Shown here: positions 2,966 through 23,509 of the stretch, piece by piece
Numbering within the stretch: position 1 is the first letter of the stretch
Layout of the letters: each line of letters begins with the position of its first letter
From: Symbiodinium natans
Lineage: Eukaryota; Sar; Dinophyceae; Suessiales; Symbiodiniaceae
Length of the DNA stretch: 64,000 bases
Reading direction: 5' to 3'
Assembly: GCA_905221605.1 (NCBI GenBank)
Contig: CAJNDS010000768.1
Span: 332,359-396,358 of the forward strand
Program-made: the position numbers and the translations under genes
The notes under the pieces: generated by a model
Seen by the model: only the letters and a program-made list of their open reading frames with translations
Databases searched by the model: none
Told to the model about the DNA's origin: nothing

Positions 2966-3042
2966 GGAGTGGGGGGGGTGTGAGGGGGGCGGGGGAGTAT
3001 GGGGGGGGGGGGGGGGGGGGGCATGGGGGGTATGGGGGGGGA
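2966..3042. repeat. G-rich tract outside the left end of the MULE
   Basis: Long G runs broken by AT and TAT (…ATGGGGGGTATGGGGGGGG). A similar tract in the same orientation lies just outside the right end at 7409-7470. It could be a preferred insertion target, an expanded target duplication or a shared simple repeat. Confidence 0.6.
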
Positions 3043-3048
3043 GATTAA

Positions 3049-3174
3049 CCCATTTTACAACCAGAATCCCCAATTTACAACCAGAACCCCCTTTTTACAA
3101 CCAGACATGGCGTTCTGAGCATGAGAACGCCCATTTTGCAACTGGACAACATCAGAACCACCATTTTGCAACCG
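3049..3174 (+). repeat. Left terminal inverted repeat of the MULE
   Basis: The end starts CCCATTTTACAACCAGAA and repeats a 19-base unit of this kind three times with small changes. It continues into GAGAACGCCCATTTTGCAAC and a further CCATTTTGCAACC copy. It aligns along nearly its whole length with the reverse complement of 7308-7399. Repeated short units in a terminal end are typical of transposase-binding sites, but that role is inferred. Confidence 0.8.
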
Positions 3175-3179
3175 GTCTC

Positions 3180-3363
3180 TGTCTATCTATCTGTCTATAT
3201 ATATGTATATTCACATATATATATATATGTATGTATATATATATATGTATATTCACATATATATATATATGTATATGTATATATATATATGTATATATAG
3301 GTATATTCACATATATATATATGTATATATATATATGTATATATATATGTATATATATATATG

Positions 3364-3394
<31 letters not shown>

Positions 3395-3445
3395 GTATAT
3401 ATATGTATATATATATATATATATATTCACACATATACAGATTGA
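3180..3445. repeat. TATATG microsatellite between the MULE left end and its gene
   Basis: Runs of TATATATATG with a recurring TATTCACA word. It lies inside the transposon, in its 5' leader region. Confidence 0.9.
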
Positions 3446-3637
3446 TATACATGTAGAGAGAGATATACCTATATATATATATGTATATTTCTCTCCCTCG
3501 GTGCCTATTTAGGCTCCGCGAAAGTTTAATAGTGACCTTGGGGTTAACTTGGTGCTCTGAGCCCTCAGTACTAAACGCAAGATACGACAACAGCAGAACA
3601 AACTTTGCCACTTTCAGATACTAGTAACATAGTTAGC

Positions 3638-6600
3638 ATGAAGCGGCCAGCTGCACATGGAACTCCTGGAGCAGCGACTTTCGTGGCTTCAGAGTACACT
3701 GTGTGGAAACAGACCTATTCCTCGAAGTCTGCCTGTTATGATGATCTTGGTTGCGGCAAGTTCTGCAGAGGCCATGCTGCCCGTGCGGTCAAGTCATCAG
3801 GCAAAGTCACATTTCTCAGGTGCCGATTGCGATCTTCCAAACCACCATGCCACTGGTCTGCCATGATACGGGTGGCTTCGGATGACTCAGTCGAGCTCTT
3901 GCAACTTGACGACCCGAAGTTTGCTGAGCACAACTCCAAGAGTGTTCTGCAAGGCAAAAGGGGATGGGAGGACTTCCAGGAGCGCAAAACAGTAAGCAAG
4001 CTGCTGACCGACTGTGCCACCAGCAGACCACAAAGAGCCTTGCGATCTGCTCGTTTGCTGGATGTTGGTCCTGTGAAAAAAGTCCAGCTCAAGCAGGTGC
4101 AGAAGCTGAAAGAGAATCTTGTAAAGAAAGTGTATGGGTGCCGCGAAATTGGACAGCTCAGGGAAGCTATCAACAAGCGCAAAGCTCTGCCAGCAGCCCG
4201 CGACCGTGGCTACTTTTGCTACAGCTCTGTCTCCACTGATGGCAAAAAAAACAAAGTAGCCATGGTTGCCACAACACGGCTTTTGCAGGAAAGATGGGTC
4301 AATCAGCCTTCATGTGTTGCTTCAATGGACGGTGGCTTCAAATTCAACTTGCTGGGCTGGCCACTTCATGTGTTGGGCCATGTCAATGAGGCAGGTCAAT
4401 TTGGACTTTGTGCGCTGGGGCTATCGTCAAATCTGGAGCAAAAGACTGTTCAGAGCATGCTTGAGGGATTTCGCGATAGCACTGCGCGTGTGACGCGGAG
4501 CAACACAAGGAAGAAACTGGCAATGTCTGACGCAGAGGCTGCTTATCGCAAGTCACTACGTGAGGCCTGCTGTCGAAAGATCTAACCAATGATGTAAACC
4601 TATTGGATTTGGCATGTTTGGGATCTAAACGTTACTAAGTTGACGGTTCTTGGAAAATTAGAGTTAGCTGGGTTAGCTAAGACCCCACATATGCCTAACC
4701 CTAAACCCCAGGCCCACCCAGGACAGCCTCTTGGAGGGTTTTTTTGTCTGGGGCCTGGGTTTAGTGTTAGCTACATATGCCCTAAACCCTAACCCTAAAC
4801 CCCGGGCCCACCCAGGACAGCCTCTTGGAGGGTTTTTTGTCTGGGGCCTGGGGTTTAGGGTTAGCTAAGACCCTACCTTCGCCCTAAACCCTAACCCTAA
4901 ACCCCAGGCCCAGGGTTTTTTTTGGTCTGGGGCCTGGGGTTTAGTGTTAGCTACATATGCCCTAAACCCTAACCCTAAACCCCGGGCCCACCCAGGACAG
5001 CCTCTTGGAGGGTTTTTTGTCTGGGGCCTGGGGTTTAGGGTTAGCTAAGACCCTACCTTTGCCCTAGACCCTAACCCTAAACCCCAGGCCCACCCAGGAC
5101 AGCCTCTTGGAGGGTTTTTTGTCTGGGGCCTGGGGTTTAGTGTTAGCTTATAGACCGGGGCTTTGTTGTCTGTGGCAGGGGTTTAGGGTTAGCTGAGACC
5201 ATGCGTATGAGGGTTTGCGTCATAGGGTCTTATGGTTGTGCTTCTTCAAACAAAACGGTGAAGAGCGGAGGTGTTTGGCGCCTCCAATCTCATGTGCTAC
5301 TTCCACGTGAAGCAAGCCTGCAAGGACTATATTGTCAAGCATGGGCATGGTTCGGCCGAACAGAGGAATGAGATTTGGGACCTGGTCTCTGACGACATCG
5401 ATGTGTTGCGAGGTGCACAGACTCTCGCGGACTTCCAGTCAAGGACGGGGTAATCCGAGACTAGCTATTAGTACACGTAGTCGCAGCGAAGGTCCTGCTG
5501 TTCTTGCGGTTGTTTCCCTTCCTGCAACCTAGCCTGAAGGTGCGCGGCAATCAAAGCTCAATGGGATGCGGGCATTGTCTCAGAGCGCACTGCTTGGCTG
5601 GACAAAGGCAAAGAGGAACGCAACTTCCCGGAATATTTCGCGCGGCAGTGGGGCACACAGGTGCCAGACTGGTACATAGGGGCGTCCAATGCAGCCATCG
5701 CCCCAAGCACCAACAATGCCGCAGAGGCTTGCATCAAGAACACACGCCTCGACGCTGGCAATGTGGTCGCCGGCATCGGGGAAATCGTGGCTTTTCTCTT
5801 ATCTCAAGTCGAAGCTGTTTCACGCAACAACTTCGATGCAGCAGCAGCTCGCGTGACTCCGCGGCCTGTTTGGCGGCGGGCCGCCGCCTTCAGCACACAC
5901 ATTGGCACCCAACTTGTGCGCAAAGTTGAGCAGGATGGACAGGCTTGGTATGTTTGCAGCCCGCGAGAAGACCCGAGCGATGAAGACGTCGGTGCCCGCA
6001 AAGTCTTGAGCACGGTCTCTGCAACAGCCCTTGTCAAAGCCTTCTGCGCTCAGCGGCAAGGCAAGTGCTGTAAAACCCTAAACCCTAAACCCCAAACCCC
6101 AAACCCTAATCCCTAAACCCTAAACCCTAAAACCCTAAACCCTAAACCCTAAACTCTTTGTCGTTGTGTGCCTCGAGGCAAAGCCACCACTGCCACGCAG
6201 CTTGCAAAGTTCACTGGATCCGACGGTTGTCGGGTGTTTGGTATCCTCAATCAGGTCGCATTTTGCACTTGTCCTGCATTCTACCATCCTCGCCGGTGCA
6301 TTCACACTTTGGGCTTGGAAGTTTACTTGGGCAAAGTGAAGCTGCCAGAAGAGCTGGACACCACGCCGGTGGGCATGGCAGTGCGTGGCAACAAGCCCAA
6401 GGCTCCGGGCCGCTATGCTGTGCCTCTCCGAAGCGACGCCAAGGATTTACGCATAGCGCACTTGGAGGCTGAAGTACGTAAGCTTCGCAAGCAAGATGCT
6501 AAGCTTCCACCTGCAGCAGACCCAGATGATATCACTGGCGCAAGCTGCTCCAAGCCTGCGCGGCGCATCAGGGGCAAGACTGCCGACCAGGCGGTTGCAC

Positions 6601-6878
6601 GGCTTCCAGACACACTCGGAGGTCCTCTGAACCACGTCCCTGCAGATTTGCATGAGACCTGTTGCGCTGCGGCTGACAAGGGTCAGTTTCCCATCACGTC
6701 CCCTGCGCAAAGAGCGCAGTTCATCCAGGGCGAGCCTTGGAAAGTTTGCATTGTCCCCCAATCATTGATGGAGGCTTTGCGATGGGGATATGTGCACCCA
6801 GACGCGGCTGCGCCGGCCGGATTAGTGTGGGAGCAAGCGGCTTCCGGACACCTCGTTTTGTCCGCAAGAGGTGGCTAG
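3638..6878 (+). CDS. MULE transposase with SWIM zinc finger (four exons)
   Basis: The product would cut and move the surrounding element by DDE chemistry in the nucleus. I read exons 3638-4571, 5266-5449, 5540-6069 and 6178-6878. All introns are GT-AG, the phases agree, and the total is 2349 nt or 782 residues. The start is the first ATG in the frame, 24 bases after a CTTTCAG that could be a trans-splice acceptor. Residues 20-105 hold a Cys/His-rich segment of the WRKY/FLYWCH type seen in MULEs. D231 (SMDGG) and D298 (MSDAEAAY) are the likely first catalytic residues. MCYFH at C322/H325 is the MULE C-x2-H motif. E435 in STNNAAEA is a good candidate for the third acidic residue. The SWIM finger is C579-x-C581-x8-C590-x-H592. 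A charged helical stretch follows (AHLEAEVRKLRKQ). No stop or frameshift interrupts the exons. Splice sites are inferred from sequence only. Confidence 0.85.
4572..5265 (+). other. Intron 1 of the MULE transposase
   Basis: Begins GTCGAAAG and ends GAGAG-type AG at 5264-5265. It joins a phase-1 exon end to a phase-1 start, restoring the ordinary MULE spacing between the second Asp and the C-x2-H motif (junction reads REACSEVFGASNLMCYFH). Stops in all relevant frames rule out read-through. Most of the intron is the repeat array described separately. A donor four bases upstream (GC) is an alternative. Confidence 0.65.
4660..5190. repeat. Tandem array of about 95-bp fold-back units inside intron 1
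   Basis: The block CACCCAGGACAGCCTCTTGG recurs at about 4714, 4809, 4989 and 5091, and a shortened copy lacking it sits near 4904. The spacing is roughly 85-102 bp. Spacers alternate between GCTACATATGCCC and GCTAAGACCCTACC, so the higher-order unit is about 180 bp. Each unit is a hairpin: CCTAACCCTAAACCCCAGGC on one arm pairs with GCCTGGGGTTTAGGGTTAG on the other. The arms are built from telomere-like CCCTAAA/CCCTAA words. Confidence 0.8.
5450..5539 (+). other. Intron 2 of the MULE transposase (90 bp)
   Basis: Begins GTAATCCG and ends CTGAAG. It joins a phase-2 end (SRT) to the exon encoding AIKAQWDAGIVSERTAW. Read-through would hit the TAA at 5451 and the downstream frame has a TGA at 5535, so removal is needed. 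It contains no telomere-like repeat. Confidence 0.6.
6070..6177 (+). other. Intron 3 of the MULE transposase, almost pure telomere-like repeat
   Basis: Begins GTAAAACCCTAAACCC and ends GCCTCGAG. About 80 of its 108 bases are CCCTAAA units or one-base variants. It joins phase-1 exons and leads directly into the SWIM-finger exon. Confidence 0.65.
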
Positions 6879-7307
6879 GCGGGTGAGCTTCGCAGTGTCT
6901 GGCTGCTGGTGCAGGAAACACCTGGTCCGAAACCTATTACTCCCCAACCCTGATCCTAAGCCCTATTACTCCCTAAACCCTAAACCCTAAGGCCCTAAAC
7001 CCTACTACTCCCCAAACTTGGTCCAACACTTCATGACTCCCCAACCCTGGTCCATGTTAAGCTAAAGAAGAATAACCGCTTTCTTGGATAGGGTTGGCTT
7101 ACAGTAAATTCCAGACAGTTGAAGCATGGTTTAAGGACTTTTTGGGGTTATGGAGACAAGAATGTTCCAACTTTCAGGAGTTTACAGTAAGAACGCCCAA
7201 TTTGCAACCAGGCTCACTTTCAAATCTGCATGGTTGCTCTAAGGGATGTTGTTGGAGGATTGAGGTTTTTGCGTTCTAAGTCAATAGGCTTGTCAAGAGG
7301 CTTATGC

Positions 7308-7399
7308 ACCTGGTTGCAATTTGGGCGTTCTCGAAACGCTTGCAGGTTGTAAAATAGGGGTTCTGGTTGTAAAATGGGGGTTCTGGTTGTAAAATGGGG
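7308..7399 (-). repeat. Right terminal inverted repeat of the MULE
   Basis: Read on the minus strand this end starts CCCCATTTTACAACCAGAA, carries three 19-base units, then GAGAACGCCCAAATTGCAAC, matching the left end in order. A further copy of AACGCCCAATTTGCAACC lies inside at 7188-7211 in the opposite orientation to this end. The two can pair as a roughly 20-bp hairpin around a 95-base loop. Confidence 0.8.
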
Positions 7400-7408
7400 T
7401 ACACGCTT

Positions 7409-7430
7409 GGGGGGGGATGGGGGGGGGTAT

Positions 7431-7470
<40 letters not shown>
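7409..7470. repeat. G-rich tract outside the right end of the MULE
   Basis: ATGGGGGGGGGTATGGGG followed by about 35 consecutive G. On the minus strand it encodes only poly-proline, which is not a gene. Confidence 0.7.
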
Positions 7471-7599
7471 GGCGGTACGAGCTGGGGGGTCGTCTAGACG
7501 GAAATGCACAACAAAAGTCAAGAGCAATCTGACAGGTCGAGTTAATGTCGCCGTCAAAAATCTGCTTGTAGAACGAATTCAGAGAAACCTCTTTCACAT

Positions 7600-9700
7600 G
7601 GCTGAGATATCAAGGATTCTCGGTTCTTGCCGCCCATTCAGGGTCCAAGGGCATTGCCCACAGGACCGTGCAGCACCATAGCGCTACGGCAACAACTTGA
7701 AATCCGGATGTCGCGACAAGCCTGGTGGAAAACGCATCACCGACCAAGTTCGTGCACGCAAGCGGGATTACAAGGCGCTGGGTTAACTCACATCTTTGCG
7801 TGTGAAGTCACATCTCTCCACTCACACGCGGCTGCGAGCGAAGTCACATCACCCGACGTAAAGTCGCATCACAGAGACATATGTTGAAGCCTCTCCCCCA
7901 ATGTGCACGCGCCGCACTCGCATGTTCTCGACACACATGCAATATACGCACTTGTCACCCCACGCCTGGGAGGGGTGTACATTTTTGTCAGCGTGAATGA
8001 GGTTTAGGGGTGCAAGTGGTTTGGACTTCGCGAATCCCCAGTGTGCTCGCGCCCGAGATACGACTTTACGCAAAAAGATACGACTTAACCTACCCACTTG
8101 CATCGGGTCTGAGCATTAGAACCAAGTCCGGGAACGTTGCCAGGAGGCCTTTCAGTAGCAATGTTTCAAGTAATCACGGAACATCAGCTCAACGTTGCAC
8201 GTCCCATAGAAGGACGTTGGCATGGGCGACCAAAACAAGCGGCAGGCTAAGTGCGTGCAAAGGAAGCTTACGGCGGCCGTGAACGCGGGGGGCTTTTGCT
8301 CATGGGGACGCTATCAAAGCTAAGCTGGTTGTATCAGGTTGGGGCTGCTTGAACGACATCCCACAACGCCTGCATGAAGCATGAGCTGATGACGATTCCC
8401 GCCAGAGAAGTGGTTTGCTTTAGAAGGCCTATGCCAAGAACACCATTGGTGTAGGTTTCCTCACGTTCTTCGACATTAAAGGCTTTGATGACCACCCATC
8501 AGGTAGAAACAATGCCTCACTGGGACTTTGTTCGTGGAAGACGCATGCTTTTTCGGCACGGAGAATCAGGAATTCTCGGTTATGCTGTTTTCACTGGCAT
8601 TTTCTTCGGTTGGTGCAGGATACTTTTTTTGCACAGGGGCACTTGCCGCTTTCAGGCTGCTGTCCTTACAAGTCTACTACCATCCATGCTGGAAATTGTA
8701 GATGCCAATCGGCTTGCCAACCCTGTGTGGATGATGGTTAGGCATGCAAGCACCCGAGCACCAGCCGAAGCCCCTGGCTCAGAACAACATCAGGTTTCAA
8801 GCCAAGAACTCCAACACCCTGCACGCCCCAAGCAGCCATAATCCATCACCAAACCTAAAGCCCACAGCCCCAACCACAACCACAGCCAAAGCCCAGATCT
8901 GCAAGACAAGGTCACCTTTCGGGACATGTGTACATCGAGCACCTAATACTGGGCGAGAAGCGTGATCCACAGGAGGCAGCGAAATCTATGACACGAACTT
9001 CGAGCGTGTCGTCTACCTGCGCGGGAACCCGAGAGGCCCTAAACCTTGGCAGATGTTGACCCCTTTCCTAGCTGAGGACTAGCCACGTGGAAAGCGGACT
9101 CTGCAGTAACTCACGGCCTTGGCCAGGCCTACGTGAATTACCAGACCTTCCTCCCAAAGCCCCAACTAAGAAGTCAGATTTACCAACTGCCCCCCCCCCC
9201 CCCCCCCCCCCCCCAACAAGAAACAAAGTCATAAATCGAAAAATGGCTTCGATGTTCAACTCGGTGCAGCAATGATGAGTAAGTCTAGGGGCCATGAAAC
9301 ATCTAGGTTGTAAGGTGTTGGGGGTTACTAAATTTACTACTTATCCGGCTGTTGTCACCCTGGCCTGAGTAACGAGGATGTTTTCGCAGGAAAGATCTCG
9401 GTGTGCTATGGACCTGAGATTGCGAAAAGCTGATTTCGTGGAGACGCTGTCAGGCAAGGCAAGCGGCGGAGATTTGCTGCGTAGGGAGAAAAAGGGGAAG
9501 GGGGGACACTTGATTTGACTCGCCCCTTACGACACAGGCCCCCTAGCTGGCCTTATCTTCTCCCTACACAAACTTTATCCCTGAACCTCAGATTTACCAC
9601 TCGGCTTTGAACGCAGAGGCACATCAGGGAACTTGCGCATTGCAAGTGGTTGTTAGAGGCTTTGGCGTCTGATAGGGAATCCAACCCACAGCATGGGGCT
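7600..9700. other. No gene recognised
   Basis: Unique sequence with a poly-C run at 9190-9213 and a triple GAAGTCACATC-like direct repeat at 7803-7870. Open frames here are short and none carries a motif I know. Confidence 0.4.
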
Positions 9701-9719
9701 GGAGACCTTCGGATGTTAC

Positions 9720-9802
9720 GGAAGAACCCGAGACGAAGGCCAACTCAATTCCGAAGCCCCAAACGTCCACACCGGGGTTGAGAAGCGAAGGAGCTCGGGC
9801 AG
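9720..9802 (-). CDS. Protein-kinase-like exon fragment (APE-to-DVW segment)
   Basis: On the minus strand, 83 bases between a TCTAG acceptor and a GTAAC donor encode RAPSLLNPGVDVWGFGIELA. Protein kinases carry APE at the end of the activation segment followed 8-12 residues later by D-x-W-x-x-G. The spacing and the VDVWGFG match fit that. The APE glutamate is replaced by serine, and I found no HRD or DFG segment nearby, so this is either one exon of a split gene, a pseudokinase or chance. The next downstream frame does not extend the similarity. Confidence 0.3.
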
Positions 9803-10405
9803 CTAGAGCCGATGAGCATTGAAAGTGCACTTGCAAGTCTTCACTGCAGTAATCATGCCCACCCCGCCTGAATGAAAGCAATTCCATACGATTGGCACGA
9901 GAGCTACATGCTGAAATTCAAAACGAGTTTCGCATTGCAGCATACCCTAAAAAGACAAGTCCACAACATCGGCGTGCTAGCGGAGTGCTTTGGAGACACT
10001 CGTAGATCTCAGAGCCAAGGCACACATTTCAACTACTGTAAATCCGAAGGCAGCTGCCACAAAACTGAGGCACTCCTACTATGACCGGTGGAGTTTCCGC
10101 CTTCCAAAAGACCGCAAACCCTGGCAACAAAGGGAAGAGGCCCAAAAAGAGAGGCACAGAAGAAATCACAACATGTGACCAGAATTATCCTGGGGGGACT
10201 CCCGGGAGACTGACAAACGCCACCCCAACATTATCGGACTCCAGACAATGGCTCGTCCTTGTATAGGCTCCGCAAGGGAAAGAAAGAATCCTCTTCAAGA
10301 ATCCTCTTCAGTGGCCCGTCTGCACTTGCGAGTTGTATCCCTATCACTATCAGATGTCATGCATCAATTCCTACGACAGCTACCGCTCCAGGTAACTCCA
10401 ACAAG

Positions 10406-11051
10406 CACCTCTCATTGCCATCTACTCCGAGCCGCAGGTCATGGAGTTCCTGCACGGCCTTCAGCATCTGTACTGCCAGCGGCTGGACTGTAGCCTGACC
10501 GTTGCGGGTCAGGAGGAGTCTTTCGTGGTTTCAAAGGCGAGTGTGGCCCGGAAGGCGCAGGCATGTGTGCGTTGATGTAAGTGTATATCAGATGCTAGAG
10601 GGCCGACCTCACAACAAGCAGCCTAGCCAAGCTGATTCCAGGCCGGAGCATGCAGCCAATCAACCACCCAAAGCTACGCAACAGGCAAGCCGAGGCCAAC
10701 GAAAGCTGGCCCAAGTATGTGCGCCCGTTGCTGCTGTTGTACTTGCTTGTTGCGAGTGGAATCCGGATTGATCCGGCAACTATTGACAACCCAACCGCTC
10801 TCCCGGCACCCACGAACAAGACTGGTTACCATCAAACAATGTTTGCACTCCTCCGCAAAGAAGCTTCCCGAGGACCGCTCAATATTGCCCCCCCCCCCCA
10901 CTCATCCTATAAGACAGAGCCAAGACCAAGCTCAAGCCTAGCTCCGCTAGCTTTCCTGGCATGTGAGCATCTCAGAGGCAGAAGATGCCAAATTTGCACA
11001 CATGTGTACATCCAGGGCATTGTGCGTGTAAGGTTGCGCGCGTGTTGCTGA
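10406..11051 (+). CDS. Candidate two-exon gene segment, unknown product
   Basis: Exon 10406-10560 has strong C/G bias at third positions and reads AIYSEPQVMEFLHGLQHLYC and onward to SFVVSKASVARKAQ. It ends CAG before GCATGT, a GC-type donor. After a short 38-base intron ending GCTAG, the phase-0 frame 10599-11051 begins RADLTTSSLAKLIPGRSM, includes PKYVRPLLLLYLLVASG (a possible short membrane segment) and is open for 151 codons. The phases agree, but a 38-base intron is unusually short and read-through hits a TGA. No family recognised. Further in-frame pieces lie upstream at 10060-10178. Confidence 0.3.
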
Positions 11052-11707
11052 GGCACGTGTGTGAGCCTGACGTCGGGAGAGCCTCGAAGCTGTCAGGTCG
11101 CCAAGACATGCGAGAGAACAAAAAGATGCACCACGAACTTCCTGAGAAGATCGATGCAACATCGATGCATCAGGCTTCTACTGGTGCCTGCTAGGCATGG
11201 CCCTTCGTCTCGAAGCATCTCAACCATCAGAAGCTGCGCTGTATCTCTCAGGACTCAGGAGCATGCGATCTGGCAGGTGTGGGTGTCTCGCGGGCGCTTC
11301 GCAGTGAAATGTCAAGGCATTCCGTGCGTTGCAGAGCTACAGCTTCTAGAATTGCAAGTTCACACACTGAAAGTGCATCTGAAAAACAACACAAACAATA
11401 GGCCCAGCCTCTCGGGTTGGACCGGGCTCCAGCTGTAGACGGGAGCACCACAGAAAGAGATCACCATGCGAAGCTAAAGACGTCACCTGGGACATTGAGG
11501 ATATCAATCTGAACGCCTATTGGCTGAGAAATCTCAAGCATTCTCAAGCTACAGACAGACCGAATCAAGCAGAGCTGCGGTCGCATACTTGGGCCCTTGT
11601 ACAAACTTCGAGCCCCTAAAGCCCCTAAACCTCCTAAACCCTATCGGTGTCCGTGTCTCCTCGTAGCTGGGCGCCCCGCAATGTACGTGCTGGTGTCGTC
11701 ATGGTAG

Positions 11708-12169
11708 ACCCCCAAAAGGGAGCACGCCCAGCGATATCCAACCTCGCAGGGATCTCAGGCAAGCGTTCCATCACGAAGTGAGAGTACTTCCAAGAACGGC
11801 TCAGAGCTGTTGTGCCAGATGTTCATCCTATACGAGAGCAACCTGGTAACCGCACTGGCGATGAAATGTCGTTTTTCATGCAAAGTCGAAGCCAAGAACC
11901 TTTTGTATAACGCTCAGTGCTTTTCCGCATGCTCAATGCTCCACAGAATGTTTGGCTCAAATTGCTTCATTCCCAACTTGTTGCGAACCCATGATGCTGC
12001 CCTCAGCGACCAACATGCTCCACCCTGCTTCGAGTGGCGCCGCGATGTTTCACAGACAGAGCGAGAGAGCGAGAGCGATAGCCAGAGAGCGGCGCCCTTT
12101 GCTCATTTAAGACCTAAGGTTTGGGGCCACCGCGTGTGTTGTTGGGCTGTTAGCGCACAAGAAACGTGA
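11708..12169 (+). CDS. Candidate coding frame, unknown product
   Basis: Open for 153 codons from just after a TAG at 11705. The first half is Ser/Gln-rich and leads to NGSELLCQMFILYESNLVTA, which could end at a GTAACC donor near 11850. The second half is less convincing. It follows the candidate exons at 10.4-11.1 kb on the same strand and might belong to the same gene, but I could not join them. Confidence 0.22.
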   Translation, partial: TPKREHAQRYPTSQGSQASVPSRSESTSKNGSELLCQMFILYESNLVTALAMKCRFSCKVEAKNLLYNAQCFSACSMLHRMFGSNCFIPNLLRTHDAALSDQHAPPCFEWRRDVSQTERESESDSQRAAPFAHLRPKVWGHRVCCWAVSAQET

Positions 12170-13415
12170 AAGCGGCGCAGCATAGATGCATGGGTATATG
12201 GCAGGCATGTGTCCCCATGCGTTTCGTTTCGTCGATTCGGTCCGGTCTTGTCCTACCCTCAGTCTGAAGCAGAGACACATGCGAAAGTTCCCAAAAAGAG
12301 CTCCCAAGCTGCAGAACAGACTTTGGGTCGACAGCCGGATTTAAGGCAGCTTAACCTCAAAACCCTCACAACATGCTCCAGCCAGAAGGAGTCAGCCTGG
12401 TTGAGAAAGGCCATGTAGGCTACATCCATCCAAGGCCTCAGTGCTGGCGCACGGAATTTTTAACGCAGAGGCCTTTGGTCTCAATTCGACGTCCCGAGCC
12501 GTCAGCTTCAGCTTAGGCGCTCGGAACTCAGGTCGGGAATTAGGGATGTGCTGCATTTAATAGAGCCTGGGTTTTGGGTCGAGGTTGAGGTTGCAGAACA
12601 TGGAAAACCCAATCCTTCTCCTACGTCAGATGCCTTGTCTATTTTGCGGCTCTGTGTGTGTGTCTCTTTCTTCGCTCGCCGTTTGCCTCTCCCTTGCCTC
12701 GTGCTGTTCGTGGCCTCTCTTGACAATTTCAACCTACCAGCAGCAATCATGTGCTTCTTTGCTTTGGCCTGTCACTCCTTCTATGTTTCTAACCTGCTTG
12801 GTCTGCCTCGAGCACGACCTGGGATCCTCGTCAAAAATGCTCTACGCTGCTGGTCGACAGCCACGGCGCATTTCAGTCTCGCGCGGATAAGCTCGTCGAA
12901 ACTTGCTTTGGTTCTCCCGCATCCACCAACTTGGGACCTGCAGGGAGGCGGGGACCAGCGAAAGGGCATCAATTTCGGCGTTGGCCACCGTAGCACCTTC
13001 GAGCTAGGCTTTAGGAACCTAAGCTCTGACTATCTGGAGTTGTTGTTTGCGCCAATCTCAGAAATATTGCCGCATCTTCAGTTCACAGCAGGAATGCGCA
13101 GAATCTCGCTTTGGGACCACCAAGGTCCCCACAACTCCCTAGGCCCTGTAGAAAGATGCCTGTTTCACTGCCACCAGCATGGCAGTGGACGTGTCGCGCA
13201 TCAGCCTTAACTCCACGCGGCTTGGACTTAGGCTTCAATGCCTAGTTGCCATCTACCATTCGAAGCTCTGAAGTCTCTCATTGAGCCTGAACCTTGTTTG
13301 CGTGGGACTCCTGGGAATTGAGCGCATGGCTCCAACGCAGGAGCTGTTCAAGAATGTGCGGTTAGGAGTCATTTGTAGGTGCAATTTGTCATTGAGGGTT
13401 TCGCCTACAAACGCC

Positions 13416-13458
13416 CCCTAAACCCTAAACCCTAAATCCTAAACCCTAAACCCTAAAC
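13416..13458 (-). repeat. CCCTAAA telomere-like array
   Basis: About six units on the C-rich strand. Confidence 0.85.
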
Positions 13459-13572
13459 CAGTACATCCCAGTATGGCAGAGCCAGGCCGCAGCACACGAC
13501 CCTGGTTCCGTGGAGCATCTTCGAGCTTCCTGCAGTCCCGACGAAGCAGCAAATGGGTTTACGAGATTAGGT

Positions 13573-13636
13573 GCCCTAAACCCTAAACCCTAAACCCCAA
13601 ACCCTAAACCCTAAACCCTAAGCCCTAAACCCTGAA
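13573..13636 (-). repeat. CCCTAAA telomere-like array
   Basis: About nine units with a few CCCCAAA and GCCCTAA variants. Confidence 0.85.
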
Positions 13637-14815
13637 CTAAATTGTTGGGGTCCTACTACTTTGGGGTCGATTTTAGGGCACCACTCCGAATTTTGACCCC
13701 CCCAAGTAGTAAAATTCCCTTACATAAGGACCACAGTAAGGTACCCCGTATTTCGGAAGAAAAACCCTCATGGTGCTCTCCTGAGCATCTGGAAGCGCGA
13801 GGGATTCCACGGAGACCACTCTGAAGTTTCCTGGTTTTCGTGACATCAAGAAGACTTTTCGGGACATGGGTTTCAGTTTTCCACGACACTGTTCAACTCG
13901 GAGTTTAGGATTCAGTGTGCTGTGAATTTCGATGTCGATGTTAGGGTGGGAAACGGACCCTCGTGCCGCCAGCTGAGAGCGCAAGGGGTGGCTTCCCCCG
14001 TGCTCTAAGCCGATGCTTTCGTGCTTTGGCGTCGGTGGTAGCAAGCTTGGCAAACTGAGCCTCTTTGGGGCCTACATGTCACGACCCAACGGCTGTGTAC
14101 ATGCAAGTCGGCCGATTAGGCTCCAAGGAGCTAGCTTTCGAATAGTGTCCATCAACGTCCACCACTCCATGCTCGACCCCTTGTTTGAGCCCTACTCGAC
14201 CCCAAATTCGCTGCAGTCGTAAAGATGCCGAAACTGTGAGCCTACTCCTTGAATGCGATACCACTTGCCACAATACAACACTGAAGAAAAAAAAGGACTC
14301 CCTGAGAAGTATCTGGAAGCGCAACCTTCAACCTCACACTCCGACTTCTCGTGCCACGTTGCTGTCTCGGTTGCCATGAAAGCCGCTGTCCTTCTCCTTA
14401 GCAGCAGAGTTCTCGGAGCCTCCATGCTTCACAACTAGGTAGTTTCGGGTGATTGAGGCCTGCATTTGTCTCGCAGGATCGCAGTTTTTTTGGCGGGATG
14501 ATTTTATGGCCCGAGCTTGGTGTTACCAGCATCTTCCATGAAAGGGGAGACCGAATGGATGGACAACCTTCGTTTTGCCAACGCTTTCGACGAATCCGGG
14601 GGGCGGGGGGTGCCAAGCTTGTAGAAAACGTTCGTTTTGCCAATGAGGGAGCGGGAGAGGGCCGACAAAATCCCATCCCAAGCAAGCCACTTCCAATGTG
14701 GCATAGCACTCTGCCTACTCAGTAAGTATCCACACACTGAGTTTCTGAGGCCCGCAGTGCGCATCGGCAGGTGGAGGCGGGGGGGAGGGGTCGTCAAATT
14801 GAAACGAGCCACGAA

Positions 14816-15148
14816 CTATGGAGCTATCATACCATGAAGGTCCTTGCCTGATTTTCCCAAGAAAATGGCAAACAAGAACGGGCGAGCTCCCAAGGCGCTA
14901 GATTTCGTGTTATGCATGTCGCGCCGAGTGAGATCGAGCTCCTGCTCCTCGTGAAGTACAGAGCTGTCCTCGCTTTTGGCCCCGAGGGCCCTAGTCGTAA
15001 GTAGCGCTGGCGATGTGCCATCGTCGCTGGTCTTTTCTTGCGTTTGGGGTCGGCGCCGGCATATGCTGTTGGTGTTAGGGGTGTCCAGGTGAGTACAAGC
15101 TAGGATCAGAGCTGCAGGGCTCTCTGATAGGGCATTCAAGACAGTCAC
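14816..15148 (-). CDS. Candidate coding frame, unknown product
   Basis: The minus strand is open for 110 codons and reads SDDGTSPALLTTRALGAKSE and on through Glu/Asp-rich sequence to FAIFLGKSGKDLHGMIAP and a TAG. The acidic, serine-rich make-up looks more like protein than the opposite frames. Minus-strand frames at 15173-15621 may be neighbouring exons. No family recognised. Confidence 0.25.
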   Translation of the reverse strand: MTVLNALSESPAALILACTHLDTPNTNSICRRRPQTQEKTSDDGTSPALLTTRALGAKSEDSSVLHEEQELDLTRRDMHNTKSSALGARPFLFAIFLGKSGKDLHGMIAP

Positions 15149-15649
15149 AGCTATTGATCTTTGCTGCGTGTCTCAAACATGTACCAAGCAGCAGAGCTGG
15201 TGGGGTTGAAAAAGTGGATCAGCTCGGAGCTTTGAATTGTCTTCGATATCCCTGCCAGAGATCAAAAGATGAGCGTACAGGAGAGCTCGTGGCTTTCTGT
15301 TCTTCAGCCCGAAACAGCCGCTAAAAACGCCCATGATGCTTAGAGCTCGGACCCTAAAAGGGAGACCACACCCTGATGGCCAACCCCTGAAGCACAGCAC
15401 GAAAAAAGCTGCCATGCATTGTCTGGGTAAGGAGGCAGACAAGAGAGGAAGTCAGCAAAAGGTAGCCTTCTGCAGGGCCTGCACCAGATTCCAGCCCGGA
15501 CCAAGCTAGTGACCAACTGCGCAGACAACCTGTGGTGCTCAACCCTCTTACAAGAAGCGGGCGCCGCCTCCTTAAAGTCAAGTGTGGCAGCTTCAACCGG
15601 GACTGGCGACTTGAAAGTCACACAGGCCTTTTAGTCACAATCGATTGCC

Positions 15650-18600
15650 GCGCCTCGTCCCCCTAGGTCCGGAAGATCGCAGCCTCCACCTGCTGCGGGC
15701 AAGGGTGCTCGGCACAACACTCACCAGGCCGAATCGAAGGGCACACGCAATGCCGCTGCTGAACCATGCTGAACCCTAGAATGGGAGACCTGTAGTTTCT
15801 GTATCTAGCGATGCTGTGAAGCACGTGCAAGACGAGTCAAAAGGGGAAGGACAAGACATGACAGGACATGACAACTCGACGTTTCAACATCCCAGGGTCC
15901 TGCCTCTAGTCAGAAGCTGGCAATCGTGCTGGGCGGGGGGGACAAGCCTGTAAGCTCCCCGATGTGCTAAGCCTGCTGCTCGCCTTGTAACCTGCATCTA
16001 CATGCCAACTCAGAGAATGGTCGGAACTCTGCGGGGAAGCCGGTGACACGGCCTTCAAGTGACTCAGGCGTATGTTTAAAGCGAAAACAGAAAACCTTTC
16101 GGCTCTCCAAGCCCTCTCGATGGGCCCAAAGCCTGGAACGGAAACTCGAGCCAAAACGCGGCGCCGGTTGAGGGCTTTGCTGATCGAGGGAGAAAGGTCC
16201 AGGTGTTAAGGCGCTCCGTAGGCTGCCGCTATGATGCTGTCTCCTTCCGGAATCGGGCTGGAACAGGGAGGCAGAAGTCGCACAAGGGCGTGGATCCGCG
16301 AGGGAGACATACGTTGCCGTGAGGCGTTACAACTATTACTGGGACGGAGCCCATCTGAAATTCCTCAGTGCCACATGTGTTCTGACTAGCAGATAATGTA
16401 CTGACCCCCCAGTGCCTGAAAAGCTGATGCAATGGCCATACCCATCCATACCCCCTTTTTTCCCCTTGCACACTCCGGCACGTTGCTTGTGCCGCCCTCC
16501 GGCCTTTGGAAGTGAGCGCTGCAAGGAAGTGCTGGGGTGAGGTGTGAGGCTTGCTGCAGTACTGCGTGATGTAGCTCATAGAGTCCCAGAGAGTAAGAGT
16601 TCTACTGTTCTACTGACTTAGGATGATGTCACACTTAGGGACCGCTGCCTGGCAGCATCGAGCAGAAAGCTCCCACGGATAGAATGCCCCCAAAACAAGG
16701 CATTCGCTCGGGGTTCAGAGCGGAGTCTGGACTGTGGGACCCAGACTTTAGAAGGCTCGCCGACACCCACATGACCAAGTATCAGCCACCACCTGTCAGC
16801 CCCAAGATACCCAATTCCTGAAAGGAAGGCTAGGCCAACCGTCGAAGAACAACTCAGCCTCGTGGGTCTCTCTCTCACCCACATTCTGCCTTAGCACCCT
16901 GAGAGGCTTAGCCTTCACAAGGGCGCCAAAGGGGCCATGAGAGGGTCTCTTGAGAAGCTTGGGGAGGCTTAGGCTTGGCGATTGTGCAGGGCTTTACATG
17001 GCTTACCGCCGCCCTGACAGCTTAAATAGGTCAAGGGACGATGTTCAGAAACCCCCCACCTGGCAGACGACTACATGGCGGATCCTGGCGGTCCGCGCTC
17101 CATGCCACTGAAACCCGAAAGCCCGGTGCACCCCTCACACATGGGACGCCAGCGCCTTGCAAATTGGGGTGGACGACCTGAGGAAGCCATGTGCTTGACT
17201 CGGCCCTCGTTTTGTGCCATGCTCACAAAGGTTCAGAATGTGACCTGGTTCGGGATGAACCAGTCGGACTTCAGGACTTCAGAAGGAGAGATGGCCTTTT
17301 TGCTCGAAGAGCATCCAGTGTCGGCTTGGAAGGCGAGATGAGCTACCGACAGCTTGCTCACTTTCCTAAGTTTGCCCTACTTGCAAGATGGATGTGGATG
17401 GACATTTCGGAACTCAACACCTGCCCTACGCGTGCCCTAAACATCCCTGAGCCCTCCACCGCCGCTGCAGCATCCTCACCCACGCGCCGCCTGGTGAAAG
17501 CTGCAAGGGGGGCTTGACGGCTTCATCACCCGGGGGGGTTTCCGAAATTCAGGGGTACCTTATTTTGAGCTAGGCCTTTGCGTGGGATCTACACGAGGTT
17601 TCATAGGGCCTAGCGCCTGGTCTAGGCCTCATAAGAGGCCTAATTCGCCACGTCTGGTCTATAGCCTTTGAATAAGTCGCTGTGGATTTGAGAGGTCTCA
17701 CATGAGTTCCTGGCCCCCAACCCTTTTTTCAATCTGCACATACCTGACGGGTAGAGTCGGCAGGGGGGGCTCAGCGTCCGAGTGCAATGGTAGATTGGTC
17801 TTGGCTGAAAGGTTCGAAGCATGTCTCCCGTTCAGCTTGTCAACATTGGGCGCTGATGCAACAAGACATGACCAGCATTTGGAAGGTGTGAGTAGCACTG
17901 AGACACGCCTGGGATCTCCAGGCACTGCGTGGCTGGGCACTTGTAGCCCGCAACCACAGCAGACGAGGCTGTAAGACTCTGTGACAACTGCGCGCGCGAT
18001 CCGCTCAGCGGAAGCAAGAACAGGCAAGGCACCTTCACTGCAGGCGGCTTCAAAAAAGCCGGAACGATGAACTGTGAGGGAAGTGTGCTTTCGTGGTTTA
18101 GTTTGGTCTTCAGGTGTTTTCAGCTCAGCACATCGCATTCTTTTTGTGAACAGTGCGCTCAGACCTGGTCAAAAACCAGAAAAGAGGCCATGGTGAACTT
18201 CCAACATCTGTACCAGCTGCCAGGCTTGGCGACATCAACCAGTGGACTAGAGCACACTAGCTGCTGCACGACCACTGAGCTCAAATACTAGCCTCTTGCT
18301 TGAAACAGCAAGCCAACAGCCCAACCTACGCTGAATATAAACCCAGTCGGGCCTGGGAATCAAGACCGAACAACTATTTCAACGAAGCAGCGCTAGTGGA
18401 TGAAACACTGAAGCTATCTGATACGTAGGCCCGAAATCTGCCAGGTAACATCGTCGTAGCTAGCTCGGTCCAAGCAAAACGGAGTCAACAAAGATGCCAT
18501 CAAGCCAGTGCTGGTGTCGAGGAATATGGAAGCTCATCTGCTGACAGCCCTAAACTCCTTCATCACCTGCTCCATCTCTCAGGGTACGGTTAGCGGGTTA

Positions 18601-18700
18601 GTCACGTCCCTCAGCCGTTTATAATCCTTAACACATCATCCACAAGAGGCATGCACTTCCCACCAAGCTCATGGACTCATATGGACAACCCTGAAAGGGG
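15650..18700. other. No gene recognised
   Basis: Unique sequence with several open frames of 80-146 codons on both strands (for example 16229-16579 and 17698-18138 minus, 17075-17341 plus). None has a motif or a clear splice pattern that favours one strand. Confidence 0.4.
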
Positions 18701-18730
18701 TGCTCAGGAAGCTTCAAGGCACTTGGAGTT

Positions 18731-18940
18731 TTGGGGTCTGAGGAGTTTGGGGTTCACTGCAAGGTGCTGAAGTCCCTTTTGGCCTGGCTTCAACTTGCCT
18801 TGGAGTTTAAGAGCAACTCAGATCTCGTTGCAAGTAAGGAAAATGCGTCCGATGCGATGGAGTGGGGCTTAAGGACTGAGGCGAATGCACGGGGCTCACC
18901 AGACTCTCAGGCCATCGTCCTTGGCTTAGGATGGAGTTGA
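18731..18940 (+). CDS. Candidate terminal exon, unknown product
   Basis: Sixty-nine codons ending in TGA, reading LQLALEFKSNSDLVASKENA and on to PDSQAIVLGLGWS. Amphipathic leucine-rich start and Glu/Asn/Ser-rich middle. A GTAAGG at 18829 offers an alternative donor. No family recognised. Confidence 0.22.
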   Translation: MGSEEFGVHCKVLKSLLAWLQLALEFKSNSDLVASKENASDAMEWGLRTEANARGSPDSQAIVLGLGWS

Positions 18941-19073
18941 TGCTTTTCTTTCGGCGGGGCTCACCCTCAAAAGCAAATCCAACAGCTTGACACTGCCCGA
19001 ACTACCTGTGTGTGGTGCAAAAAGGGGGCTTGGCTCAATCGAGTTCAAAAACAATCCCACGACATCCAGGTCA

Positions 19074-19207
19074 ACCCTAAACCCTGAACCCTTAAACCCC
19101 TAAACCCCTAAACCCCTAAACCCCTAAACCCCTCAACCCCTCAACCCCTCAACCCCCAAACCCCCAAACCCTAAACCCCAAACCCTAAACCCTAAACCCT
19201 AAACCTC
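19074..19207 (-). repeat. CCCTAAA / CCCCTAAA array facing 19316-19436
   Basis: Starts as CCCTAAA, shifts to an 8-base CCCCTAAA form, then CCCCTCAA, then returns to CCCTAAA. Together with the G-strand array 110 bp away it forms a large inverted repeat. Confidence 0.9.
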
Positions 19208-19315
19208 GAATGCGAGACTTGACCATTGCACCGACTGCAGGCTCCGGATCGCTGTCGGAATCGTTTTCAAAGGCCCGGCTTCGGGTCATGGTCTGGACCT
19301 TCGGGAACCCCGACG

Positions 19316-19436
19316 GTTTAGGGTTTAGGTTTAGGGTTTAGGGTTTAGGGTTTAGGGTTTAGGGTTTAGGGTCTAGGGTCTAGGGTCTAGGGTCTAGGGT
19401 CTAGGGTTTAGGGTTTAGGGTTTAGGGTTTAGGGAC
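19316..19436 (+). repeat. TTTAGGG array with an internal block of TCTAGGG variants
   Basis: About seventeen units. A central run of about five or six carries TCTAGGG instead of TTTAGGG (19371-19405), as if one variant unit had been amplified locally. On the minus strand the array directly follows a candidate GTGAGT donor at 19434-19439. Confidence 0.9.
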
Positions 19437-20187
19437 TCACCCAGTTGCGTCCGGCTTCAATAAGGGTTTGTGATGCATGCTGGGGGTTGGACTCAGAGAC
19501 TAAAGCTGGCCTAGGTTCCGAATGCCAAGGAAGTTTTAAGAGCGCCCGTGGCGGACCCTCAGGGAGTGAGACCTCTGTTGTGCCCAAGGAACGGTAGAGA
19601 GGTTGCCATCCACCACCTTCCCCATGACCTGGCAGGTGTGTGTTGGAGTTTGGTCTGGCTTGTGGTCGTCCCTCTCTTGGGGCGCAGTAGGTGTGGCGGT
19701 GTACTCGCGGCTAATTTGCGGTTGCGGCTGACCCCCGCTCCCTCGAATGGAACTTCGGGTGGGGTGAGGGGCCAGGAGAAGCAGCGGGCACAGAGTGAGC
19801 AGCAGCCGATACTGCCGACACTCAGCAAGAAAGGAACCATGTGCCGAAGCAGACAATCTGCGCAGATGATTAGCCGAGATCTTTGCAGGCGGAAGATTAA
19901 GAACACGCATTGTTTTTTTCCTTCAAGCACACTGCAGGTCATCACGTTCGCCATCACGCTCAAAGCATACCGCAATTACGAACACATCCACTTCTCGCAC
20001 TCTTTCCCAACCCCTTAGTCGGAGGAGCCACACTTCACCTGCTTATGCTTGCAGTCGACTAGGGGAGCCCTACAGTGACGTGTTGCGTGCCTTGCCTTGG
20101 GCATGGACTCCATGTTCCGCGCGCCACGAGGTGCGACAAAGCGATGCAGGAAGAGAGCTCCGCAGAGGCAGGACAGGCAGACCTTTC

Positions 20188-20226
20188 ATGGTTTAGGGTT
20201 TAGGGTTTAGGGTTTAGGGCTTAGGG
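20188..20226 (+). repeat. TTTAGGG telomere-like array
   Basis: About five units on the G-rich strand. Confidence 0.85.
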
Positions 20227-20920
20227 ATTTGGTCTGCGGCCTCTCGGGTTTAAGACTATACAGGCCTTCCTGTCATGTGGAGACCCTGGGAACGCATCTG
20301 TCGAAGATCAACACCGACATCCCAAAACCTCCAACCGCGAAGGCCTCGCACGGAACTGGGAGCAAAAAACCGCCCTTAACCTCGTGAGAGGTTGAGGTTC
20401 TGGACCCGCTTGTTGGAAACCACTGAAACGCGGCAGAAAAAAAGACCCCAAAGAAGCCTCTTTACGCCCCTTTCTCCGGATCTTTCACAGAACTTTTCGG
20501 CGGGCCACGAAGAGTGCCCCGGCCACCAGCATCCTAAAGCCTCGAGAGCAGCTTTCAGCAGAATGCATCTACAAGTCTACGATGCTTCACGAGATGGTTT
20601 GAATGCTCACATGTTTCTGGGAGGGGGAGGTGTCTGAGATTTCTTGAGTGGCTACAGGATTTCACATCCCAAAACTATTGAGTTCTTGACGCTGAACGCC
20701 CGAAAGTTCGTGCACGTCGTGGCAGCAGATCTCAAAAAAATCACACGACGTCAGCCGGGCGTCCGTGGCCAGTGGAGGGATCCGCGAAACTGCGGAGGCT
20801 GGTCTGAGGCTCGGCCTCGCCAAGCAGGTCTCGGCTCAAGGACGTTAGGGCCGTGGCCTTTGGGCTTCTACCGCTTCCTGGCTGTTCATTGGCTTGGTCC
20901 TAAAACCCTAAACCCTAAAG

Positions 20921-20982
20921 CCGGCCTTGACGCAGAGGTAGTTGCCCTGTCTGGACACCTGGGGGCAGCCGGTGTTTTCCAG
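20921..20982 (+). CDS. Candidate exon next to telomere-like repeat
   Basis: Sixty-two bases between CCCTAAAG and GTAAGG encode GLDAEVVALSGHLGAAGVFQ. The acceptor would be the end of a CCCTAAA array. The minus strand has its own weaker reading (VSRQGNYLCVK before GCCGG), so strand is uncertain. No family recognised. Confidence 0.25.
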
Positions 20983-21074
20983 GTAAGGCCAAGGATTGAA
21001 GAACTGGAATGGAGGCTGGTCGAATCACTCACAAGGACCCCAAACTGTGGCTTGGAGGAGCGCGGGATACTCAC

Positions 21075-21163
21075 CGGGTGGTCTAGTGGTCTTCCGTTCC
21101 GACGCACCAGTCTCGCTACAGCCAGGGCCTCCCTGGCAACAGCCGAACTGTATCTACGCCACC
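21075..21163 (-). CDS. Candidate internal exon, unknown product
   Basis: Eighty-nine bases between a GTTGTAG acceptor and a consensus GTGAGT donor. It encodes WRRYSSAVAREALAVARLVR followed by RNGRPLDHP. The Ala/Arg-rich helix-like composition and the good donor support an exon. It lies just downstream, on the same strand, of the candidate frames at 21241-22179. Confidence 0.33.
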
Positions 21164-21240
21164 CTACAACACACCACATCCTAGAACATACTGTTACGAA
21201 GAGTGACACGTACCAGTACTAGAAAAAACGCTTCAACGCT

Positions 21241-22179
21241 TCAGAGATGCGCCTGGCAAGCACTGCCCCCTTTGCAAGGGTTGGAGCTTGGATGGCACTC
21301 GTCCAGGGCCTCCGGTGGCTGCTGCACCATGGCCTGCTGACTGGCCTCTTGGTGTCTCATGCCCTCTTGGTGCGGCATGCCTTGGTGCGGCACGCCTTGG
21401 TGCGGCATGTTGTGGGTAGCGCTGCGCATGTGCTGCCCACCTTCGTGCATACCTGCACCAGCACCTCTCATCATGTGCCCGCCCTGACCGGGTTGGTGAT
21501 CCGGGCGTGGCCCGGTAGTACCTGGGGTTCCCAGCGATGAGGGAGGTGAAGCTACGTCCTTCTCTGTGCGGCGGCACGTGCTGTGTCTCAGCACCCCTGC
21601 CCGGCAGGACAGGCTTTCGGGGCCATGATTGTTCCCGTTGTACTCCGCCAGCGTGGCCTGCATGAAGAAGCTGTCTCCCACTCCACCCAGTAGCTCCTCG
21701 TCAGTTCCTTTGTTGCCCTGCTCAAACAGCTCAAACTGTAGAACATCGCAAAACTCCCTTAAGAGCCTACAGCGCGGTGCCCTAGAGTGCCTTGCAGCAA
21801 AAACTTAAGTGTCCCAGCTTTCTGGTCGCACCAGGGCACGGAGCTCCAGGACCCCACCCTTTCGGGCACCTGCCTTTGGCAGGACGAAGTGCTTTGTCTG
21901 CCCCACCTGGAGGACAAGGGGCTTGCAACTTGAGGATTTGTTGTGTGGTCTCCAAAACCTCAAAGCCAAGCAAAAAAAAAAAAAACAAAGCCCCCGTCCT
22001 AACTCGAAGCCCCCCTCCCAAAGCCAGCCCACCTCGCGCCCAACCAACAGTTCCACGGACTCAGTGGAGGAGGCGGCCACGTCGCCGCCCAGAAGCTCCA
22101 ACAAGACCCTGTAGCCCTCCTCGGGACCATGAATGTTGGGTTCAGGGCTCAAGGCAAAGTGGGTGGGTAAGGGCTCCAA
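21241..22179 (-). CDS. Candidate coding region with His/Gln/Met-rich end, one in-frame stop
   Basis: One minus-strand frame is open from 22179 to 21244 except for a single TAA at 21805. It includes GPEEGYRVLLELLGGDVAAS, a T-tract that is probably intronic, VGQTKHFVLPKAGARKGG, then LLREFCDVLQFELFEQGNKG. It ends in a low-complexity tail of MPHQ/VPHQ repeats. CCTCCAG before VGQTK and CTCTAG after the TAA could be splice acceptors, so the stop may lie in an intron. Otherwise it is a broken gene. No family recognised. Confidence 0.33.
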
Positions 22180-23035
22180 AATGTGAGATTCGGATGGAGG
22201 CGTCTAGAATCCGAGCCATTAACCATGTGTCGGGCCTAAGACTGCCTGTGCAGAGTTGCTCAGGTGGTTGTTCTTCGGGGAAGTCCGGAAGTTGATGTTG
22301 ACTTGCTCAGCCCAACCTGACCCCTGGCACCTTCGAAAAAAAGCCAGTCATGACCCTCTAAGCAAGACAACACACAAATGCACATGGCAAATCCTCGGTC
22401 TTCTCCACATCGACGGAGCCGATCCAGGGTCCCAAATCCTCCAGGTCAGTCGAGGCTGACAGGTCTGAGAAATTTTGGCTCCCGGACTAACAGAAGGCCC
22501 TTGCAGTTCAGGGGTGCGCGCCTGTCAGGCTCTTTGCAATGTTTTCCACTCCCTCCCCCTCTGCCCCCCTCCACCCCTTTTCCCCTCCTGAGGCTCTTTA
22601 GGCTTGAACATTAGTGCATTCGCCAATCTTAAACCCGAAAATCTTGAACCTGCCTTGACCTGCTCGTTGCAGCCGCTTCCCCCCAGGGCTGCGTCCAAGA
22701 GCCACGCCAGCGCCAATGAACGCAATGCCATGGCCATGGCGCTTGCAGAGCGTGGCAGGGGCTTAGAACAAATCAAACGACTCAATTCTAACACGTGAAA
22801 TGCTCCCGTTGTCAATTTTTCATGCCAGATGGGTTCGGACAACAACCAGACTTGTGGGCATGCTATGCGATCTCGGGGTCACGGTCCGTCCGCACGTACT
22901 CGGTACACGGAAGACTTGTGGTGCTTCGGACGTCTAGACGAGATCCCAACTCCTGCAAAGGCTGTGGACCATCACTATGAGACTCTGCATGACTCTGCGT
23001 AGGCGTCTGTGCAGGCTGCTGGGAGGTGATCGGGA

Positions 23036-23509
23036 TTAAGCAGGTCGGGGTGCGACACCCGGCCCGCAAAGCGGCCCGGCAAACCTTTTCCCTCGTCGCC
23101 ATTTAAGATGTCTGTGGCATGAGATCTCCTCGAGCTCCTCGGGCGTTGGGAACAACAAACCAAAAGGGTCCGTCCTTGGGGCGGGGCCCTTTTGGTGATG
23201 AAAATTGGCAGGCTGCATATGGGGTGTGGGCGTTGGGTGTCGGTTTGGGGATGCTTGAGGCTTTGATAAACTTTGGGCTGGACCCATGCTGAATTTTTTT
23301 TTCAGGAGATGCTCAGAAGTGCTGTGCATGTGGCTTGTTGGAGCAGCCCGCCAACAAGACGACGCGGCCGGATTCCCTTTAGGGAGCGCAAGAGATAATT
23401 CGTCGTCCATCGGTCGGAGCTGAAGGCTCTGCCAACTCTTGCTTAGAGTGTCGGACAGTGAAGGAGTTCTAGCGACAGGGCTCGACTCCGGTCTGGTAAT
23501 GCTTGCCAC
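23036..23509 (-). CDS. Candidate coding frame, Pro/Ser-rich, unknown product
   Basis: Open for 157 codons, reading TPSLSDTLSKSWQSLQLRPM and DDELSLALPKGNPA, then a His/Pro-rich linker and GLLFPTPEELEEISCHRHLK. Composition suggests a disordered regulatory region. It is upstream on the same strand of the candidate exons at 21.1-22.2 kb and may belong to the same gene. No family recognised. Confidence 0.28.
   Translation of the reverse strand: MASITRPESSPVARTPSLSDTLSKSWQSLQLRPMDDELSLALPKGNPAASSCWRAAPTSHMHSTSEHLLKKKFSMGPAQSLSKPQASPNRHPTPTPHMQPANFHHQKGPAPRTDPFGLLFPTPEELEEISCHRHLKWRRGKRFAGPLCGPGVAPRPA

Follow-up and report, generated by a model that had tools for sequence, protein, structure and literature searches.

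Does the transposase-bearing repeat carried by a 64,000-nucleotide stretch of the Symbiodinium natans genome represent a complete transposable element, and where in the genome do it and its relatives insert? The stretch, referred to here as the window, corresponds to positions 332359-396358 of contig C768 (CAJNDS010000768.1) in an assembly of 759 Mb and 2,543 contigs, and a first-pass annotation made from the letters alone had described the repeat as an apparently intact autonomous Mutator-like element (MULE) in an algal genome. Our analysis indicates, with a probability of about 0.85, that it is a full-length MULE of a small dinoflagellate family that encodes a 778-aa DDE transposase, inserts at poly(G)/poly(C) tracts with a 10-bp target duplication and includes short copies probably moved in trans; the anatomy of the element, its family, the tract context and the 10-bp duplications can be read directly from the assembly. 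The host is indeed an alga, and specifically a dinoflagellate, because the 21-mer that we take to be the dinoflagellate spliced-leader exon has 205 exact genome copies (104 forward and 101 reverse), against none for the reversed control.

The element and its predicted gene

The limits of the element are given by the termini that it has in common with family copies (Table 1), and the coordinates first assigned to it, 3049-7399, had clipped about 7 bp from each end. Terminal inverted repeats are present, as had been claimed: the left end reads GAGATTAACCCATTTTACAACCAGAA from 3041, the right end reads GCGTGTACCCCATTTTACAACCAGAA on the opposite strand from 7406, and each end carries three tandem copies of a 20-bp unit (3049-3105 and 7345-7400 by TRF), with more diverged units further inward. 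These units look like candidate binding sites for the transposase.

Four exons joined across three GT-AG introns give a protein of 778 aa and a stop codon with no internal stops, in agreement with the uninterrupted frame reported earlier, and no stop-free frame in the window is longer than the one containing exon 1, frames that cross the N gap being left aside. The joined protein matched the Pfam MULE domain PF10551 at 31.4 bits (cut-off 27.6, E 2.6e-7), which bears out the MULE identity, whereas the exon-1 frame alone reached 21.1 bits and the separate exon frames all scored below the cut-off; this gain on joining supports the exon 1-2 junction. The three introns of the first-pass annotation are plausible. 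The residues D231, D298, C318-x2-H321 and E431 and a SWIM-like C575-x-C...C586-x-H588 occur in this order and were located by motif rather than by alignment, and an N-terminal Cys/His pattern (FLRCRLRSSKPPCHW) was recognized by eye. Features expected of MULE transposases are an N-terminal zinc finger DNA-binding domain and, after the DDE core, a SWIM zinc finger. A relic on C1776 retains aa 25-115 of the transposase at 77% identity, so the N-terminal region is common to a diverged relative; a comparison with solved structures returned three matches, at E 0.78-0.94 only. In the excerpted part of one report, a C/DxxH motif is ascribed to MuDR (PMC3706591).

Family copies and their target tracts

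A genome-wide count of copies, which had been proposed as a check, found the exact left terminus at 25 places in the assembly and its reversed control at none. Exon 1 searched as DNA gave 14 matches (13 candidates, all scored), full length at three places (C768, which is the window, C446 and C82), and exon 3 gave three matches, at the same three places and each 100%; distant relatives escape DNA searches of this kind. The C446 and C82 copies are approximately 98.8% identical to the window element. The frame of the C446 copy is open throughout, and that of the C82 copy has 8 substitutions, in-frame deletions of 12 and 6 bp and no stop, its right terminus being lost or degenerate. Coding differences between the window and C446 (5 silent and 3 replacement by site, 4 and 4 by codon) are too few for a selection test. 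Most copies with both ends are shorter than the window element (20 of 22, at 586-1,790 bp, with 14 of those 20 within 1.0-1.3 kb). An internal-deletion derivative on C347 (L011) is 99.7% identical to the window element over its right 571 bp and 96.7% over its left 0.9 kb, and six short copies retain about the first 30 codons (~31) at 71-79% identity. These six appear to stem from an autonomous relative that has diverged.

Family copies are flanked mostly by G or C runs, which the first-pass annotation did not report. The 25 left termini were found by a pattern that reads element letters only, and the flanks of all 25 were retrieved; a G/C tract, defined as 12 consecutive bases of which 10 or more are G, or 10 or more are C, lay within 30 bp of the left end in 23 of them, compared with 472 of 32,733 background 30-mers (1.4%) taken from the window and the surroundings of the C768, C446 and C82 copies. 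The exceptions are the copies on C1335, which has a C tract at its right side and the duplication ATGTACCCCC, and on C1899. Across 35 tabulated loci, G alone or C alone makes up at least 75% of the 16-bp flank at 24 of 29 left and 20 of 25 right ends, against 600 of 98,289 background 16-mers (0.61%); this table includes four loci without recognizable termini (L014, L035, L047 and L052) and still counts the right ends of L050 (a misplaced fuzzy match) and L009 (degenerate). On the plus strand of the element, 18 of the 29 left flanks are richer in G than in C, and both orientations are seen. Insertions are concentrated in one type of simple repeat, the G/C homopolymer rather than (TA)n.

Because homopolymers hide duplications, only interrupted duplications were counted. 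Exact interrupted duplications of 9-12 bp were present in 9 of 22 true flank pairs and in 7 of 462 mismatched pairs, their length being 10 bp in seven of the 22 and 11 bp in two, and ATGTACCCCC, GGGGGGGAAC and GGGCTGGGGG are examples. The test covered 22 of 23 two-ended loci, with L009 omitted for its lost right terminus and L053 standing for L012 at the same place, and the pairs are not all independent: C768 and C446 share a right flank, C1755 and C1315 have the same flanks, and C47 and C1791 agree over the 16 bp that adjoin their right ends. At the family level the duplications agree with the 8-11 bp quoted for MULEs in the excerpted source (PMC5907723).

An ordinary MULE without target preference might leave a similar picture if its copies survived where they were harmless, or if slippage of a G-rich duplication lengthened the tracts beside the element once it was in place. 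Slippage is expected in pure G/C runs, several copies do have pure G/C 16-bp flanks, and poly-G/C runs are common (the 64-kb window has 12 that reach 10 bp or more). However, growth of a 10-bp duplication does not account for interrupted duplications inside longer interrupted tracts (GGGTGGGGGG, GGGGGGAGGG and CTCCCCCCCC), and the G/C-richness of nearly all targets, set against the low background, would be left unexplained. We regard this account as improbable.

We favor insertion into the tracts, in a pathway where the transposase would be translated from a spliced mRNA of the MULE gene and would probably bind the 20-bp subterminal units, its DDE core would cut the element out, and the complex would paste it into a G/C tract with a 10-bp stagger, giving the 10-bp target duplication; short derivatives that retain both ends, mostly of 1.0-1.3 kb, would probably be mobilized in trans. 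We infer the excision, binding and trans steps from membership in the MULE family, and splicing, catalysis and a tract preference acting at integration are likewise proposed rather than observed. The transposase itself may recognize poly(dG)-poly(dC), by sequence or by an unusual shape, and this ability may have evolved in a dinoflagellate independently of the (TA)n plant MULEs. A host protein that binds G tracts might instead tether the transposase, as tethering is known for Tf1 and TRE5-A (PMC3706591) and an ancillary targeting system has been proposed for SaTar MULEs (PMC5907723), both according to excerpts of these papers; insertion inside the tract or directly at its edge argues against tethering, which we consider somewhat doubtful.

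A second terminus-based search touched the same family. The terminus GAGATTAAC adjoining ten G/C occurs at 10 places genome-wide and at two in the control, and we rejected a wider set of families sharing it, as nine of the 10 places had already been assigned to this family and the sequence at the tenth, on C114, was left unread. At L015, a second GAGATTAAC (GAGATTAACACCCTTATTGTGG, 2074-2110) lies 5 bp past the right end of the copy within the same C tract, and it possibly belongs to another element sharing that tract. In L009, the C82 copy, the differences from window positions 6876-6932 are clustered T-to-C and A-to-G changes with an 11-bp gap around the stop codon, which could reflect either patchy consensus error or mutation.

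Table 1. Coordinates of the MULE, its predicted gene and its flanking tracts in the window
Feature	Position	Strand	Description
Left target tract, interrupted poly-G	2971..3040	unspecified	
Whole MULE element	3041..7406	+	4,366 bp; termini common to family copies
Left terminal inverted repeat	3041..3108	+	Terminus GAGATTAAC, then three tandem 20-bp units, core TTTACAACCAG
Left subterminal units, two more, diverged	3120..3179	+	ATTTTGCAAC
TA-rich simple repeat, 5' of gene	3196..3488	unspecified	
Exon 1	3638..4559	+	Cys/His region at N-terminus; D231 (first D; codon starts at 4328); D298 (second D; codon starts at 4529)
Intron 1 (GT-AG), predicted	4560..5265	+	Contains 102/180-bp tandem repeats, 4694-5148
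Exon 2	5266..5449	+	C-x2-H (CYFH), C codon from 5295
Intron 2 (GT-AG), predicted	5450..5539	+	
Exon 3	5540..6069	+	Catalytic E431 (in NNAAEA); codon starts at 5724
Intron 3 (GT-AG), predicted	6070..6177	+	(AAACCCT)n for most part
Exon 4	6178..6878	+	SWIM-like C-x-C...C-x-H aa 575-588, C-terminus, stop
Right terminal inverted repeat	7345..7406	-	Terminus GCGTGTACCCC, with three 20-bp units
Right target tract, interrupted poly-G	7407..7475	unspecified	G39 at 7431-7469

Recent activity and the relationship of the window copy to C446

Several observations weigh against a full-length MULE that inserts at G/C tracts. The SWIM region of the transposase scored 13.1 and 13.9 bits, under the Pfam cut-off of 19.6, and the N-terminal Cys/His region gave no Pfam match above cut-off; thus, of the complete motif set claimed at first, the order of D, D, C-x2-H, E and SWIM-like residues stands and the SWIM and N-terminal finger assignments stay below the cut-off, as the suggested hidden Markov model search of the joined protein recovered MULE and not SWIM. 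The left end on C1899 (L054) has GGGG only, and the 16-bp flanks fall short of 75% at five of 29 left and five of 25 right ends. In the duplication test, 13 of 22 pairs lack an interrupted duplication of 9-12 bp: L017 and L039 have pure C on both sides and are uninformative, the duplication at L042 is 8 bp only, and none was found at the window, L010, L011, L013, L015, L018, L036, L037, L038 and L056. At the window copy no exact duplication is present (ATGGGGGGG/TTGGGGGGG), 8 of 9 bases agreeing, and an empty site was not found among the 40 scored of 482 left-flank candidates. A separate caveat is that full-length coding DNA, as searched with exons 1 and 3, was found at three places only.

The scarcity of coding copies, together with the C82 copy that has neither stop nor right terminus, would also suit a dead family, that is, a recently stopped relic whose frame is still open. 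We think this unlikely in view of the close identity between copies, the invariant exon 3 and the two open frames. The recent activity proposed in the first-pass annotation is plausible from the similarity of the copies and from the near-identical C347 derivative, and it is weakened by the same scarcity, by the state of the C82 copy and by the chance that the window copy is joined to the 3' part of C446.

This last point arises from the right side of the element. From 7300, the window matches C446 over 9.35 kb with no substitutions and 28 gap positions in 4 gaps, and 16728-25765 is 100% identical to C446 over 9,038 bp, reaching a 100-N gap; approximately 100 bp of C446 between the two compared stretches is not covered. 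Window positions 7407-25865 form an 18-kb substitution-free block ending at that scaffold gap (25766-25865), for which the candidate explanations are an assembly that is redundant or wrongly joined and a duplication of very recent date. The left flank of the window is not common to C446, and the window alone matches it in full among the 40 scored of 482 candidates. Within the element, the window agrees with C82 at the variants of the first 0.65 kb, with one exception (3619), mid-element variants are mixed or private to the window, and beyond 6371 the window equals C446 at every difference. From these patterns, the window copy or C446 may be an assembly join within the repeat, or a very recent duplication may have ended there, which also counts against our interpretation of the window copy.

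A join in the window copy itself, linking the 3' part of the C446 copy to an insertion at the left locus, has in our judgment a chance approaching even; in its favor are the absence of substitutions, the unshared left flank and the shift of variants from C82 to C446. However, C446 could equally be the joined one, and the ATG-interrupted left tract of the window resembles its right tract more than the pure G tract of C446 does (by eye). Both candidate 5' parts are open, so that one or more real intact copies should exist under either arrangement. The target tract of the window copy coincides with the point at which the two contigs diverge, which is relevant to the reading of such genomes.

Known target-specific elements and neighboring repeats

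Several plant MULEs are established as targeting (TA)n for the most part, and we compared their behavior with that of the S. natans family from excerpts of the cited papers. MuTAnT/AutoMuTAnT of Medicago truncatula, whose putative autonomous element has 4,873 bp, five exons and 833 aa and targets (TA)n (PMC4486113), likewise combines a multi-exon putative autonomous element with many short non-autonomous copies in a simple repeat, a likeness in behavior. In contrast to that land-plant (TA)n element, the dinoflagellate element is found in G/C homopolymer, with 4,366 bp, four exons and 778 aa, and MuTAnT has 9-nt duplications where copies sit outside perfect repeats (PMC4486113), whereas the duplications here are of 10 bp inside tracts. 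SaTar and the autonomous SaTar-MULEs of guayule and rice, including Micron, are flanked by microsatellites (PMC5907723); they resemble the present family in that autonomous and non-autonomous MULEs lie beside microsatellites, some members with 10-bp duplications, but the rice families were sought via (TA)n flanks, many microsatellite-sited copies have no duplications and the autonomous copies are described as defective, unlike the open frames and duplications inside tracts seen here. The Ac-mMITEs of pineapple are Mutator-like miniature inverted-repeat transposable elements (MITEs) that favor a simple repeat, with 9/10-bp duplications in a subset, but they are mainly at (TA)n, and an autonomous element was not found in the pineapple study (PMC8449440). 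Dada is also a target-specific DDE DNA transposon, distantly similar to MuDR, although its targets are tRNA/snRNA genes and its duplications are of 6-7 bp (PMC3706591).

Searches of the openly licensed literature on dinoflagellate MULEs, MULE target choice and homopolymer targets revealed, among the titles and abstract openings listed, no MULE of G/C homopolymers and no such dinoflagellate family, and other papers may describe one. DNA transposons with a specific target are uncommon, and the MULEs of this kind that we found in print, as far as the excerpts extend, are mainly (TA)n elements of plants. The family makes it possible to ask, in a compact system, how a homopolymer is selected by a DDE transposase or by a host partner, a value that rests on the open autonomous copy, the matching short derivatives and the clean 10-bp duplications in G/C tracts, and it raises the question of whether a simple-repeat safe harbor evolved more than once in MULEs.

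Other scans of the DNA concerned the origin of the element and its surroundings. A single scan of viral contigs, able to reveal only close relatives, confirmed no viral relative, and a viral origin of the element was rejected to that extent. No Rfam match at the gathering score was obtained in the window or in 15 family loci, and no tRNA was found in the window. CCCTAAA/TTTAGGG occurs 288 times in the window against approximately 8 expected, and 22 of these are within the MULE (for example at 4694-5148 and 6073-6154); these are telomere-like repeats dispersed across the window, some of them carried by the transposon. Adjoining the MULE, a repeat of ~118 bp at 2529-2660 has matches of 89-94% at 39 other places (40 scored of 482 candidates). 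A further repeat of ~93 bp at 26315-26407 has perfect 18-bp inverted ends (GATGTTCCCCCTTATACT / AGTATAAGGGGGAACATC) and, among 40 scored of 1,834 candidates, 80-86% matches on more than 30 contigs, many on both strands, and it looks like a small MITE.

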